Assembly: GCA_900095875.1 (NCBI GenBank)
Contig: LT608311.1
Coordinates: 1,736,001-1,800,000, forward strand
From: Caecibacter massiliensis
Lineage (GTDB): Bacteria; Bacillota; Negativicutes; Veillonellales; Megasphaeraceae
Length of the DNA stretch: 64,000 nt
Direction: 5' to 3'
Both the position numbers and the translations under genes were made by a program. Below are positions 19,570 through 36,623 of the stretch, piece by piece. Each line of letters starts with the position of its first letter. The stretch's first letter is position 1. Under the pieces are notes generated by a model. That model was not told the DNA's origin and made no database searches. It saw only the letters and a program-made list of their open reading frames with translations.

Positions 19570-22938
<3,369 letters not shown>

Positions 22939-22956
22939 ATCCGTCTGTATATTCTG

Positions 22957-22990
22957 CTGCTCCGCTATATCATGCGGAGCAGTATTTTTT
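22957..22990 (+). terminator. Terminator after pyrG
   Basis: 9-bp stem CTGCTCCGC/GCGGAGCAG (22957-22965 with 22974-22982) and a T-rich tail. Confidence 0.9.
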
Positions 22991-23128
22991 GTGGCATCCT
23001 GCCCGAAAAGTTTATCGTTTAAGTTATATTTGTTGTCACTTTTTGATATAGTACTTTGTTCTAATTTTTCACATACATGGCCCAGGCTATGGTGATAATT
23101 CCATAAATCAGATAAATTCTCATCTATG

Positions 23129-23259
23129 CATCACGAATATGTGATGAATACAGACCTTTTCTGTATATAAAATACGCATAATCAATATGCGGAATAGGAA
23201 AAATATTTTAGGACAAAAGTCGATAATCATGCGGAATATATAGAAGACACGCGGAAATA
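23129..23259 (+). promoter_or_regulatory. Candidate regulator-binding sites upstream of rnf
   Basis: Within the ~660-base gap before rnfC there is an inverted repeat CATCAC(N6)GTGATG at 23129-23146. There are also three direct repeats: ATGCGGAATA at 23187-23196 and 23229-23238, and a variant ACGCGGAAATA at 23249-23259. The start-to-start spacings are 42 and 20 bases, close to whole helical turns. They lie just upstream of an extended -10 promoter, where activator sites would be expected. The stretch 22991-23128 is AT-rich and shows nothing else. Confidence 0.45.
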
Positions 23260-23270
23260 GGGCAGGAGCT

Positions 23271-23279
23271 TGCTATAAT
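23271..23279 (+). promoter_or_regulatory. Extended -10 promoter P1 upstream of rnf
   Basis: TGcTATAAT with no clear -35, 12-22 bases downstream of the nearest repeated site. Confidence 0.5.
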
Positions 23280-23286
23280 TTTCACA

Positions 23287-23315
23287 TTGAATAATAAAAG
23301 AGATGATGATATAAT
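23287..23315 (+). promoter_or_regulatory. Promoter P2 upstream of rnf
   Basis: TTGAAT at 23287-23292, a 17-base spacer and TATAAT at 23310-23315. It predicts a transcript start near 23322 and a leader of about 280 bases. Confidence 0.75.
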
Positions 23316-23321
23316 GATAAC

Positions 23322-23604
23322 GATTGAAAGTGGATAATTCTGTCCTGATAAAACGTTTATCTGCTTTCGAAAGAGCGGTCACCTAGTGATTGCAGATTTG
23401 TAAGCACCCCTTTGGGATACGATATAGTGCAGTCGGAATTCATCGGCGGCATTACGGCTTTCATGCCGTCTTGTAGAGGCGTCAAGTTATTCGACAGGTT
23501 TTTGACAGACAAGAAATATGCCGGGCCGGAAAACGTATCGCTTCTCTAAATTGGTTGCTTAATGTTTTTATTTTTTCATTATATATTTAATGAGGTGATT
23601 TTTG
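23322..23604 (+). ncRNA. Long structured leader RNA of the rnf operon, class unknown
   Basis: The ~280-base untranslated stretch between promoter P2 and rnfC can fold into a branched structure. CTGTC (23340-23344) pairs with GACAG (23504-23508), and AAAAC (23350-23354) with GTTTT (23498-23502), closing the domain. Inside are ATCTGC/GCAGAT (23359-23364 with 23392-23397) enclosing GTCAC-CTA-GTGAT, then GCAC/GTGC (23404-23407 with 23427-23430), and CGGCAT/ATGCCG (23447-23452 with 23463-23468). No start codon with a ribosome-binding site gives a convincing small protein. I could not match it to the known riboswitch classes I checked by eye, and no intrinsic terminator is obvious. A 6S-like or trans-acting RNA is an alternative. 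Confidence 0.45.
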
Positions 23605-24960
23605 ATGTTGAAAACCTTTAAAAGAGGTGGGGTTCATCCTGACGATGGCAAAATCTATGCAAAAGATAAAGCCATAGAAACCCCAGCAATACCGGATCAA
23701 GTAGTCATCCCGATGAGTCAGCATTTTGGCGCTCCTTGCACTCCGACAGTCAAGGTTGGCGATCATGTCAAGAAAGGGCAGCTCATTGGTACGAGCGATG
23801 CTTTTCTCCATGCTGACATCCATGCTTCTATTTCCGGTGATGTTGTCAAGGTAGCTCCCATGCCGCACAACATGATGGTTAAGTGCATGGCTGTTGTCAT
23901 CAAATCGGATGGTAAGGATGAATGGGCTGATGGCATTCCCCAGGAACGGGACTGGACTAAGCTCGAAAGCAAGGAAATCATCGAACTGATTAAAAAAGCA
24001 GGCGTTGTAGGCTGCGGTGGCGCTACCTTCCCTGCTCATGTAAAATTTACGCCTAACAAACCTGTCGATACTTTCATTGTAAACGGTGCCGAATGCGAAC
24101 CGTATCTGACATGCGACTACCGTGCCATGGTAGAAGATGAATATGTTCAGAAACTGGTAACCGGTGTCCAGATCATCATGAAAGCTCTTGGTGTACATCA
24201 GGGTTATATCGGAATTGAAGATAATAAACCGGAAGCTATCGCCAAACTGACAGAAGCTTTTAAAGATATTCCGGAAGTTACGGTTCAGCCTTGTGTCACG
24301 AAATATCCGCAGGGCGCTGAAAAAATGATGATTGAAGCCATGACGGGCCGTCAGGTCGAACCAGGCGGACTGCCGATGAATGTCGGCTGTGTCGTAAGCA
24401 ATGTCGGTACGGTCATTGCCGTTACCGATGCCGTATGCCATGGTATCCCGTTCATTTCCCGTCTGACGACTGTAACCGGTGACTGCATCAAGGAACCGAA
24501 GAACCTGAATCTCCGTATTGGTACATTGTTCCAGGAAGTCATTGATTATTGCGGCGGTTTCTCCCAGACTCCCGACCGGGTAATCGGCGGCGGCCCGATG
24601 ATGGGTCTTGCCCAGTACCAGCTCGATGTTCCTATTACCAAAGGTGCATCTGGTATCCTCGCATTATCGCCTGAAAAATGCCAGGTTGGTGAAGAATCTC
24701 CGTGTATCCGTTGCGGCCGTTGTGTAGAAGCATGTCCGATGGGTCTTATCCCGAGTCAGCTGAGCATCTTCTCTTCCTGCCAGGCATGGGATAAATGCAT
24801 GGAATACGGTGTTATGAACTGCGTAGAATGCGGCAGCTGCGTTTATACCTGCCCGGCAAAACGCAATATCGTCCAGTATATCCGCAACGCCAAGGCACAA
24901 TGCAAAGCTATGCAGAGAGCAGCACAGGCCAAAGCCGATGCGCAAAAGGCTAAGAACTAA
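23605..24960 (+). CDS. rnfC: Rnf electron transport complex subunit C
   Basis: Membrane-associated cytoplasmic subunit of the Rnf complex, which oxidises ferredoxin, reduces NAD+ and pumps Na+ or H+. 451 residues: an N-terminal barrel-sandwich part (V-K-V-G-D-H-V-K-K-G-Q), the NADH/FMN-binding 51K-like domain with G-C-G-G-A-T-F-P and N-G-A-E-C-E-P-Y, an SLBB region, and two [4Fe-4S] motifs, C-I-R-C-G-R-C-V-E-A-C-P and C-V-E-C-G-S-C-V-Y-T-C-P, near 367-416. The C-terminus is short, without the long alanine-rich repeat of proteobacterial RnfC. The ATG at 23605 has GAGGTG 7 bases upstream. First gene of rnfCDGEAB. Confidence 0.96.
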   Translation: MLKTFKRGGVHPDDGKIYAKDKAIETPAIPDQVVIPMSQHFGAPCTPTVKVGDHVKKGQLIGTSDAFLHADIHASISGDVVKVAPMPHNMMVKCMAVVIKSDGKDEWADGIPQERDWTKLESKEIIELIKKAGVVGCGGATFPAHVKFTPNKPVDTFIVNGAECEPYLTCDYRAMVEDEYVQKLVTGVQIIMKALGVHQGYIGIEDNKPEAIAKLTEAFKDIPEVTVQPCVTKYPQGAEKMMIEAMTGRQVEPGGLPMNVGCVVSNVGTVIAVTDAVCHGIPFISRLTTVTGDCIKEPKNLNLRIGTLFQEVIDYCGGFSQTPDRVIGGGPMMGLAQYQLDVPITKGASGILALSPEKCQVGEESPCIRCGRCVEACPMGLIPSQLSIFSSCQAWDKCMEYGVMNCVECGSCVYTCPAKRNIVQYIRNAKAQCKAMQRAAQAKADAQKAKN

Positions 24961-28658: not shown

Positions 28659-29717
28659 ATGGATCTGAAACGCTATGCCCGTTATCTCAGCATGGCTGCG
28701 CTTTTGATCGTTATGAGCTGCTCCGGGTGTTCACTGCATCCGGAGCAGTCTTATAATAAGAGCACCATTGCCATGGATACAACGATTCAGCTGCGGGCAG
28801 AAGGAAAAGAAGCAAAAGAAGCCGTAGAACAAGGGCTCGAACGGGTACATCAGCTCGATAGTCTGGCCAGTGCCCAAAATCCGGATAGTGATATAAGCCG
28901 CATCAATGCAGCGGCCGGTCAATCCTATGTCCAGGTAGACCCGTCAGTCTATGAAATGATTGCCATTGCCAAAGAATATTCGGAAAAGACCCAGGGGGCA
29001 TGGGACATCAGTGTCGGTATCATCACAAAATTGTGGGATATCGGAAATGATGACCAGCATGTTCCGTCCGATGAAGAAATTGCATCGGCCCTGACTCACG
29101 TAAATTATAAGGATATCCTGCTCGAACCGGGAACTCACAGCGTCATGCTGGCGAAAGAAGGGATGTGCCTTGATCTGGGCGGTATCGCCAAGGGTTTTGC
29201 TGTCGATGAAGTTCGCAAGATTTATGAAGCCCATCACATTCAGAGCGGGCTCATCAACATGGGGGCCAGTTCTATGTATGCCGTCGGCAGGACGGGCAAA
29301 GATAAGCCATGGAAAATTGGTATCCGCCATCCCCGCAATGATTCTCCCGATACGTATCTGGGCATCGTTTCTATTGAGAATCAGGCCTTAGGCACTTCCG
29401 GGGATTATGAACGGTACTTCATCCAGGATGGCATCCGCTACCATCATATTTTTGATCCGCGGACCGGCCGGCCAGCCCGTTCCGGCGTTATGAGTGATTC
29501 TGTCGTCATTGATGGAAAGGTTGATCATGCCGGTATGCTCAGTGACATGTTTACGACCATTATCTTTGTCCTTGGACCTGAAAAAGGGATGGAATTCCTT
29601 AAAAATCTGGATGGTGTAGAAGGCGAAATAACGGCGGAAGACGGCACTGTATACATGACGGAAGGGTTTAAGGACCATTTTTCTGATCTTAACGAGGACT
29701 TTCATCTGGTGAAGTAA
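28659..29717 (+). CDS. apbE: FAD:protein FMN transferase (ApbE), probable lipoprotein
   Basis: 352 residues. Transfers FMN from FAD to a threonine of target proteins outside the inner membrane; the expected clients here are RnfG and RnfD, encoded just upstream. It has a signal peptide ending in a cysteine-rich V-M-S-C-S-G-C segment that could serve as a lipobox, then the ApbE fold: D-S-D-I-S-R-I-N, D-I-S-V-G, L-D-L-G-G-I-A-K-G-F, I-N-M-G, T-S-G-D-Y-E-R, and H-I-F-D-P-R-T-G-R-P with a metal ligand. Which cysteine is lipidated is uncertain. Confidence 0.94.
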   Translation: MDLKRYARYLSMAALLIVMSCSGCSLHPEQSYNKSTIAMDTTIQLRAEGKEAKEAVEQGLERVHQLDSLASAQNPDSDISRINAAAGQSYVQVDPSVYEMIAIAKEYSEKTQGAWDISVGIITKLWDIGNDDQHVPSDEEIASALTHVNYKDILLEPGTHSVMLAKEGMCLDLGGIAKGFAVDEVRKIYEAHHIQSGLINMGASSMYAVGRTGKDKPWKIGIRHPRNDSPDTYLGIVSIENQALGTSGDYERYFIQDGIRYHHIFDPRTGRPARSGVMSDSVVIDGKVDHAGMLSDMFTTIIFVLGPEKGMEFLKNLDGVEGEITAEDGTVYMTEGFKDHFSDLNEDFHLVK

Positions 29718-29876: not shown

Positions 29877-30326
29877 ATGGATCATATTGACGAAAAAATC
29901 CTGACAATTCTTAAGAAGAATGGCAAGGCTTCAGCTACGGAAATCAGCAAAATAGTCGGCCTGTCTATACCGGCTGTTTCAGAACGAATCCGTAAAATGG
30001 AACACAATGGTATTATTGAAGGCTATGGGGCTAAAATCAGCCGCCGCAAGACGGGCTATAACGTCACGGCCTTTATTATGGTCAACCTGGAACGTTCCGG
30101 TGATGTGGAAGAATTCCGCCAGAAAGTTGTCGAATTTAACCAGGTATTGGAATGCCATCATGTGGTCGGTGCTTTTGACTACCTGCTGAAGGTATTGGTC
30201 AAGACACCGGACGATCTGGAACATTTCCTCATGGAAGAGCTCAATGAAATTCCGACGGTAGCTTCATCTCAGACATTCATGTGTCTTTCTACTTTGAAGG
30301 AAGAATGGAATGTCAATGTGCAGTGA
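29877..30326 (+). CDS. Lrp/AsnC family transcriptional regulator
   Basis: 149 residues: an N-terminal winged helix-turn-helix (about 5-50, with A-T-E-I-S-K-I-V-G-L-S-I-P-A-V-S-E-R) and a C-terminal RAM effector-binding domain (about 65-140). Such proteins sense amino acids or other small metabolites as octamers. The ATG has AAGGGGGATG upstream, and a TATAAT lies at 29802-29807. It stands alone between apbE and a shared terminator. Its targets are not visible. Confidence 0.92.
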   Translation: MDHIDEKILTILKKNGKASATEISKIVGLSIPAVSERIRKMEHNGIIEGYGAKISRRKTGYNVTAFIMVNLERSGDVEEFRQKVVEFNQVLECHHVVGAFDYLLKVLVKTPDDLEHFLMEELNEIPTVASSQTFMCLSTLKEEWNVNVQ

Positions 30327-35206: not shown

Positions 35207-36424
35207 TTATTTCAGATGAGTCAAGATATGCCCCATCTTATTTTTCTTAGTTTCCAGATAGAATTCATCAAATTTCTGGGCCGGCATTTCAATGGGAACC
35301 CGTTCGACGATTTCCACGCCAAACCCTTCGAGACCGTAAATCTTGAGGGGATTATTGGTAAGGAGCCGTAATTCCCGGGCACCCAGGTCCTGGAGTATCT
35401 GGGCACCGATCCAGTATTCGCGGAGATCCGGGGCAAAGCCCAGTTTTTCGTTGGCTTCTACTGTGTCATACCCCTGTTCCTGCAGGGCATAGGCTTTGAG
35501 CTTATTGATGAGGCCGATGCCGCGTCCTTCCTGGCGCATATACAGGAGGATGCCCCGCCCTTCCTTATTGATCTGCGTCAGGGCGGCGGCCAGCTGTTCA
35601 CCGCAGTCGCAGCGGCAGGAACCGAAGACATCACCGGTCAGGCATTCCGAATGGACCCGGCAGAGGAGATTTTTGCCATCGCCGATTTCGCCTTTGACGA
35701 GGGCGACATGGTGTTCCCCGGTCAGGTCATTGATATAACCGTAAATCTTGAATTCGCCGTATTTGGTAGGCATCTTTGCCGTAGCTTCCCGCACGACGTG
35801 TTTGTCATGACGACGGCAGTAATTCTGCAGATCGTGGATGGAGACGAAAGTCAGGTGGTGAGTGCGGGCCAGTTCCCAAAGTGCCTTGGAGTGCATGATT
35901 TCGCCGCGTTCATCGAGGATTTCGCAGCATACGCCGACTTGCTTCAGCCCGGCCAGGCGCAACAGGTCCAATGTGGCTTCCGTGTGGCCGTTGCGCATGA
36001 GGACACCGCCCTTGACGCCGGTCAGGGGAAATACATGTCCCGGCCGGGTAAAATCATCAGCTGAGATAGAATCTGTCGCGGCTTTCTGGATAGTACGGGC
36101 CCGGTCTTCTGCCGTGATACCCGAATCTGTATCTTTATAGTCGATAGAAACGGTAAAAGCCGTATGGTTGTTGTTGGTGTTTTCGCCTACCATAGGGAAC
36201 AAGCCCAGCTTATGGGCATATTCCTGACTGACGGGCAGGCAGATGAGTCCCTTGCCATGATTCATCATGAAATTAACGTTTTCCGGGGTGCAGTACTGGG
36301 CAGCGCAGATGAAGTTGGCTTCATCTTCCCGTTCGGGATCGTCGGCAACCATGACGATATGACCAGACTGCAATTCCTGGATTGCTTCTTCAATCGTATT
36401 ATATGTTTGTTCTTTTGTATCCAT
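35207..36424 (-). CDS. ribBA: Bifunctional dihydroxybutanone-phosphate synthase/GTP cyclohydrolase II
   Basis: 405 residues that make the two first intermediates of riboflavin. The N-terminal RibB domain (about 1-200) has [11 protein letters not shown] and the R-x-G-H-x-x-P motif with T-E-A-T-L-D-L. The C-terminal RibA domain has the zinc ligands in G-S-C-R-C-D-C-G and [10 protein letters not shown]. The start is ATG 36424 after AGGAGG; the frame stays open upstream into the riboswitch but is not translated. It is controlled by an FMN riboswitch. No other rib genes are in the window. Confidence 0.96.
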
Positions 36425-36446
36425 CAGAAACCTCCTGTATATAATT

Positions 36447-36482
36447 AAAAGCCCTGTTGCACTATGCATGCACAGGGCTTTA
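36447..36482 (-). terminator. Regulatory terminator of the ribBA riboswitch
   Basis: GCCCTGT (36451-36457) and ACAGGGC (36472-36478) form a stem, extended by AAA/TTT, giving a U-tail on the minus strand between the aptamer and the ribBA ribosome-binding site. Forming it when FMN is bound would stop transcription. Confidence 0.75.
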
Positions 36483-36514
36483 TGACAATAAGAATACACA
36501 TACACTATCATCAT

Positions 36515-36623
36515 ATCTTCTCTCATCCAGACTTTACTGTCGGTTTTGGAATTTCACCAAATCGTACACTGCGTGTTCGCGGACTGTCACCGCCGGTCGG
36601 GGATTGCGCCCTGCCCTGAAGAT
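36515..36623 (-). promoter_or_regulatory. FMN riboswitch (RFN element)
   Basis: On the minus strand, the conserved core is clear: GAAGAT and ATCTTC close P1 (36623-36618 with 36520-36515), with AGGGCAGGG, CCCGACCGGCGGT, AGTCCGCGA, GGTGAAATTCC and CCGACAGT in the expected order. It precedes ribBA and begins right at the predicted transcript start. Confidence 0.97.

Follow-up and report, generated by a model that had tools for sequence, protein, structure and literature searches.

A fossil rseC reading frame within the rnfC leader of Caecibacter massiliensis and the possible retention of part of it as folded RNA

Many anaerobes rely on the Rnf complex as a central ion pump. For C. ljungdahlii, regulation of the rnf genes was described as largely open in passages of a report on this organism (PMC9124969). 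A similar question is raised by a 64,000-nt stretch of the 2.65-Mb Caecibacter massiliensis genome (contig LT608311.1, positions 1,736,001 to 1,800,000; hereafter the window), in which a predicted leader separates the operon promoter from rnfC. We asked what this leader is made of and whether it may act as RNA.

Promoter, leader and gene order at the rnfC locus

The features of the region are collected in Table 1. Upstream of the leader lies an ORF (21247-22938) that we take to be pyrG, and a pattern scan placed a terminator-like site (22955-22984) after this ORF and ahead of the leader. Immediately 3' of the rnf genes, an ORF (28659-29717, + strand) was observed that presumably encodes a flavin transferase (ApbE) carrying a lipoprotein signal; it is followed at 29877-30326 by what we take to be an Lrp/AsnC-like regulator.

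By exact-pattern search, TTGAAT-N17-TATAAT was found upstream of rnfC in all 16 family genomes that have this rnfC (one further family genome, G016, is without such an rnfC and stands outside the 16), and the same promoter stands ahead of an intact rseC gene in M. paucivorans. From this promoter, an earlier, sequence-only reading had predicted a leader of about 280 nt, which was thus upheld. The pattern scan alone gave no excess of promoter-like sites in the region (3 vs 3.0 expected). The scan also detected no + strand terminator-like site within 23322-23604, and an intrinsic terminator in the leader, as a transcription attenuator would need, was therefore rejected.

Leader length varied widely among the 16 loci, six of which, all from Megasphaera, are those of G011 (M. 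cerevisiae), G002 (M. sp. NM10), G013 (M. massiliensis), G012, G009 and G015 (M. paucivorans). The -10 box and the rnfC start are separated by 67 nt in G002, G006, G009, G012 and G013, by 276 to 412 nt in ten genomes (289 nt in the window) and by 552 nt in M. paucivorans.

Table 1. Coordinates of the rnfC leader region, in window positions
Feature	Position	Strand	Basis or remark
Operon promoter, TTGAAT-17-TATAAT	23287..23315	+	TTGAAT 23287-23292, TATAAT 23310-23315, spacer 17 nt; TG one base ahead of -10 box
Untranslated leader, ~283 nt	23322..23604	+	start site predicted
Hairpin P0, 14-bp stem 23324-23337/23357-23370	23324..23370	+	pair probabilities 0.74-0.99
Hairpin PB, GCGGUCAC-CUA-GUGAUUGC	23375..23393	+	fold
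rseC relic, codons 87-137 and TAA stop (23547-23549)	23394..23549	+	tblastn, open frame, codon-position counts
P1 5' arm: UAAGCACC 23401-23408, GGGA 23414-23417, CGAUAU 23420-23425	23401..23425	+	
Hairpin P2, AGUGC-A-GUCG / CGGC-G-GCAUU, stem 23426-23435/23444-23453	23426..23453	+	
P1 3' arm: GUAUCG 23535-23540, UCUC 23543-23546, GGUUGCUUA 23553-23561	23535..23561	+	
GUUGCUU, anti-Shine-Dalgarno-like	23554..23560	+	within outer P1 of the predicted window fold; letters conserved in alignment A5
Shine-Dalgarno sequence of rnfC, GAGGTG	23592..23597	+	
rnfC	23605..24960	+	first intact gene 3' of the promoter; name fits gene order

A relic of rseC between the promoter and rnfC

In M. paucivorans, the space between promoter and rnfC is occupied by an intact rseC gene of 137 codons that ends 59 nt ahead of rnfC. 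Its product scored 81.3 bits against Pfam RseC_MucC (cut-off 24.4), and its NCBIfam match fell under the cut-off. When this protein was compared by tblastn to the 16 upstream regions, it matched the window over 51 residues at 57% identity, with no gap and no stop (23394-23546; E 9.4e-18), and the TAA that follows in the window occupies the stop position of the intact gene. No counterpart of rseC codons 1-86 was found in the window leader. According to the abstract of PMC11729352, the full-length RseC/MucC protein has an N-terminal cysteine motif and two transmembrane helices. The leader, in which only codons 87-137 remain, holds no working RseC/MucC gene; by homology, shared stop position and the same place before rnfC, it holds a pseudogene relic. 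Segment 23394-23549 is a fossil of rseC, an assignment that leaves us very little doubt, and the claim of the sequence-only reading that the leader has no protein-coding content has to be corrected, as the 3' third of rseC is present in one open frame. The 51-residue relic on its own matched no Pfam or NCBIfam family and is thus visible by comparison only.

The relic differed from the intact rseC at 17, 11 and 18 sites in codon positions 1, 2 and 3, compared to 64, 43 and 197 for rnfC of the same two genomes, which points to relaxed selection on the RseC protein.

Among 250 genomes of the class, 98 were found to carry rnfC, including the 16 of the family. The best 14 of the 82 rnfC loci outside the family were fetched, all from one family (f14), which we guess to be Acidaminococcaceae. 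All 14 carried a full-length rseC directly upstream of rnfC (36-47% identity), and promoter-rseC-rnfC is thus the older order. Inside the family, weaker rseC traces were detected by blastn in G007 (E 5e-6) and G011 (E 2e-4), those in G008 and G001 were not significant alone, and the similar-length leaders of G003, G004, G010 and G014 had no detectable rseC similarity. The whole rseC segment was absent before rnfC in 5 of the 16 genomes. M. paucivorans fell in a basal polytomy of the rnfC tree, compatible with one or several losses of rseC. In all 15 genomes without a linked rseC, an RseC gene is present at another place and shares 50-67% identity with the linked protein of M. paucivorans, which may be why the linked gene could be lost.

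Several further observations were made on these loci. The second RseC gene of the window genome (C2:1911508-1911873; L074 1426-1887) encodes a protein that shares 58% identity with the linked one of M. paucivorans, sits after an ORF that reads like galU, and is likely a stand-in for the lost linked copy. In the short leaders (G006, G002, G012, G013, G009), a hairpin, GAAAGCAUG-AUU-CAUGUUUUU, remains at the join, as seen in the folds of G002 and G012. In G007, UUC occurs on either side, as would be expected if the deletion took place between short repeats. G004, G003 and G014 have 323-351 nt before rnfC in leaders without rseC similarity, and the leader bodies (minus the last 58 nt) were strongly folded in G004 (z -5.6) and G003 (z -4.8).

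Predicted fold of the leader and its comparative support

In the predicted fold of the window leader, hairpins P0 and PB come first and are followed by helix P1, which encloses P2 and more hairpins. Segments chosen after seeing the fold gave z -4.0 for P0 (23322-23373) and z -3.8 for PB (23374-23393). Several hairpins were thus predicted, as in the sequence-only reading, but the fold energy of the whole leader was just z -1.68 (at least as good in 13 of 200 and 7 of 150 shuffles). The relic alone gave z -0.38, an energy reached by 97 of 300 shuffles. Ten leaders without rseC all had negative z scores (mean -2.7, seven below -2), and the leader with the intact rseC had z -0.68. Control stretches were also analyzed: the mean z was -1.26 for 20 intergenic stretches, 35% of them below -2, and -0.61 for 40 coding stretches. 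Since the controls, too, were more stable than shuffles, little weight can be given to energy by itself, and the case rests on covariation.

The sequence-only reading had closed this domain by two specific helices, 23340-23344/23504-23508 and 23350-23354/23498-23502. These segments are complementary, yet every pair had an ensemble probability of 0.0. The leader contains 53 helices of 5 bp and the 100 shuffles an average of 43.4 (sd 8.1); in the frequency of nested pairs of these helices, 19% of the shuffles matched the leader. Thus, the two helices are at chance level and were rejected, and what stands of the proposed structured, closed and branched domain before rnfC is its outline, for which P1 and P2 provide the comparative support described below.

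Seven species form P1 between the anchors UGCAGUC and GUUGCUU, with differing letters, e.g., CGAUAU/GUAUCG in the window, CGGCG/CGCCG in G005 and GAUAUGAU/AUCAUAUC in G008. P1 duplexes of the seven species were stronger when both arms came from one species (mean -16.9) than across species (mean -13.2; permutation p 0.006); P1 was noticed by eye before testing, and the permutation tests ignore the tree. When both arms were slid, P1 ranked first by energy gap among 268 pairs of segments (p 0.0012), adjacent positions of the helix came next, and 5.2% of the 268, P1 included, were at p < 0.01. At the homologous place in 15 rseC paralogues elsewhere, no P1-type effect was detected (0.68). In a test of 31 pairs in six sequences, from which the structure itself had been drawn, 88.0% of cells paired compared to 82.9% in shuffles (0 of 500), and 8 of the 31 pairs were changed on both sides compared to 3.6 in shuffles (2 of 500 reach 8). 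Six of these doubly changed pairs lie in P1, two in P2 and none in the anti-Shine-Dalgarno helix, where 8 of 9 pairs are invariant among the six sequences. Unconstrained RNAalifold of the six sequences found P1, P2 and the anti-Shine-Dalgarno helix with an energy that beat 149 of 150 shuffles. For the sister species G007 and G008, RNAalifold gave 10 doubly changed pairs of 73. Shuffling of this alignment gave 4.6 +- 2.0 such pairs, the observed number being attained in 1 of 150 and the observed energy in 0 of 150.

Other results run against a kept fold. With the structure taken from one sequence, substituted pairs that were still paired numbered 18 of 37 and 25 of 40 for G007/G008, but only 5 of 19 and 4 of 22 for G000/G015. 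The latter values lie under the coding control of 372 of 818 (rnfC-rnfD); a second control, the stretch ahead of the promoter, gave 11 of 43 and 19 of 57. RNAalifold of all seven sequences gave a weak result (7 of 150), and that of six sequences contained no doubly changed pairs. Compensations among G003, G004 and G014 were not in excess (11 vs 10.3), and when the partner was slid by -1 in the 31-pair test, 10 doubly changed cells were counted compared to 9 unslid. Thus, compensatory changes across species were found for P1 and P2 only, at moderate strength, in sets of six to seven sequences that afford little power, and with contrary results present, and we conclude that a fold comprising P1 and P2 is probably conserved in part of the leader. 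Conservation outside near-identical strains, which the sequence-only reading had set as its own test, thereby received some comparative support.

Possible control of rnfC translation and competing explanations

Some leaders that act in cis, translational riboswitches among them, use an anti-Shine-Dalgarno platform, and the rnfC leader resembles this type in having a closed domain with a 3' arm that lies next to, or overlaps, a segment able to mask the ribosome site. It differs from the type in being largely a dead gene, at one locus, in one family and with no Rfam match. In the window, UAAGCA is predicted to pair UGCUUA in outer P1 (0.57-0.96), by which GUUGCUU would be held, and the probability of anti-Shine-Dalgarno:Shine-Dalgarno pairing was 0.00. 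By prediction, this pairing reached 0.70 in G003 and 0.62 in G004, and in G005, G007 and G008 GUUGCUUCAU can pair AUGAGGUGAU across the ribosome site (0.59, 0.38 and 0.31). The leader 5' end competes for the anti-Shine-Dalgarno segment in G007 and G008 (0.32 and 0.37). A helix that closes the 5' end onto the 3' part (last 120 nt) was predicted for G003 (0.98), G014 (0.93), G004 (0.64), G008 (0.64) and G007 (0.58), and had a probability of 0.00 in the window. The anti-Shine-Dalgarno pairing in G005, G007 and G008 and the competing 5' end in the last two suggest translational tuning, against which stands the probability of 0.00 for this pairing in the window.

From these data, the following course may be proposed. 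The ancestral operon had the order promoter-rseC-rnfCDGEAB. In the window genome, the start and first 86 codons of rseC have disappeared, and the last 51 codons with the rseC-rnfC spacer account for most of the ~283-nt untranslated leader. An RNA domain in which P1 encloses P2 and a variable arm has probably been kept, with P1 maintained in several Megasphaera species despite letter changes and with its 3' arm bordering or including GUUGCUU, which in some relatives can pair the rnfC ribosome-binding site. This domain would then most likely set the level of rnfC translation: with P1 closed, GUUGCUU would be held or spaced away and the ribosome site left free, and with P1 open, the site would be masked by GUUGCUU. 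A role of the leader in rnfC expression we judge evenly poised. The reading as a whole, in which a pseudogene turned into an untranslated leader and kept a partial fold, perhaps for translational control of rnfC, is in our estimate about as apt to be right as wrong.

The C. ljungdahlii rnf locus has the same order, with rseC next to rnfCDGEAB, and a putative terminator is mentioned between rseC and rnfC in passages of PMC9124969 and PMC6203783. In that organism, according to parts of PMC9124969, rnfC is directly preceded by rseC, autotrophy is abolished when rseC is deleted, and the effect of RseC on rnf expression is positive. Passages of PMC6203783 place rnfC under strict translational control, with a translation efficiency of 0.1 on fructose compared to 0.9 and 1.3 on gases. 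By contrast to C. ljungdahlii, where rseC is intact and needed for autotrophy (same passages of PMC9124969), the linked rseC is a relic here and a related RseC gene is found elsewhere in the genome; the passages of the two reports on C. ljungdahlii do not describe a leader RNA fold. The matches listed from the open-licence literature included no paper that deals with an rnf leader RNA or an rseC relic in Megasphaera.

The most serious competing explanation is that the leader is plain pseudogene debris, i.e., a decaying rseC whose structure is incidental or merely protects the untranslated message, with no regulation. The tblastn identity of the relic, a window fold energy near that of shuffles, controls from the same genomes that also fold better than shuffles, pair retention of G000/G015 under the coding control and loss of the whole segment in 5 of 16 genomes all fit this explanation. 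Against it stand the covariation of P1, which was absent in the paralogues, and the G007/G008 compensations. Furthermore, the relic and M. paucivorans rseC differ at 9 of 69 sites in the first 23 codons and at 37 of 84 in the last 28, a split that uniform decay does not predict; the better-kept first 23 codons were observed to hold the P1 5' arm and P2. We consider debris a substantial possibility, somewhat short of an even chance. More tentative is the proposal, which we think improbable though worth stating, that the coding sequence of a dead regulatory-protein gene was taken over as a cis-acting RNA switch of rnfC translation that works without RseC; P1 and P2 would then have been formable inside the end of rseC while it was still a gene, as in M. 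paucivorans.

A ligand-sensing riboswitch of unknown class that responds to a redox or flavin signal, as suggested by the sequence-only reading, is very unlikely, even though a closed junction-like domain is combined with a competing anti-Shine-Dalgarno/Shine-Dalgarno arrangement in some species. No Rfam 15 covariance model matched the leader at gathering score, and the known riboswitch classes were rejected; up to E 5, only two snoRNA families appeared in 23000-23700 (E 2.5 and 4.3). The same window does hold another leader RNA, an FMN riboswitch (RF00050, 36511-36627, - strand), which unlike the rnfC leader matches its Rfam model (107 bits) and lies before an ORF (35207-36526, - strand) that presumably is a bifunctional riboflavin gene of the ribBA type. 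A covariance model trained on six leader sequences (R1) was searched in the family, in 61 order genomes and in 250 class genomes. It recovered its six training sequences and G001 (E 1.7e-9), matched the five short leaders at E 6e-6 to 3.5e-5, with the match confined to the 3' end in two of these, reached only E 1.9 on the G004 leader and left those of G003, G010 and G014 unmatched. Outside the family, the best match was at E 0.22 among the 61 order genomes, and two weak matches (E 0.006 and 0.024 per genome) were obtained from the 250 class genomes, all of which we take to be chance. No counterpart of P1/P2 was seen by eye in folds of the 14 rseC-rnfC junctions outside the family, and by these folds and the 250-genome search no element shared with the class was found. 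With no convincing match away from rnfC, the leader appears to be a local element of one operon and not a spread RNA class. As its sequence is moreover mostly derived from a coding region, is absent as a segment in 5 of 16 genomes, and, apart from the block around UGCAGUCGG, shows no unpaired core of strong conservation, the riboswitch reading is unsupported.

Still less probable is that the relic is translated as a short peptide, e.g., from TTG 23412, whose upstream ORF would be coupled to rnfC. The frame is open for 51 codons and 45 codons can be read from this TTG; on the other side, no Shine-Dalgarno-like sequence was read before it, the differences noted above are spread over all codon positions, and the other leaders lack an equivalent 51-codon match. 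Insertion of a mobile or repeated element into the stretch from promoter to rnfC, as presence or absence between species with clean edges might suggest, has next to no likelihood and was rejected, since the window genome gave a single match and 23394-23549 is homologous to the gene that holds the same place in relatives.

Taken together, across related species the linked rseC occurs intact, in half-eroded form or not at all, and a partial RNA fold seems to outlast the protein. If this is true, the rnfC locus would be a test case for how a working RNA can remain from a dying gene; in any case, it cautions that a fossil reading frame can pass for a 'structured leader'.
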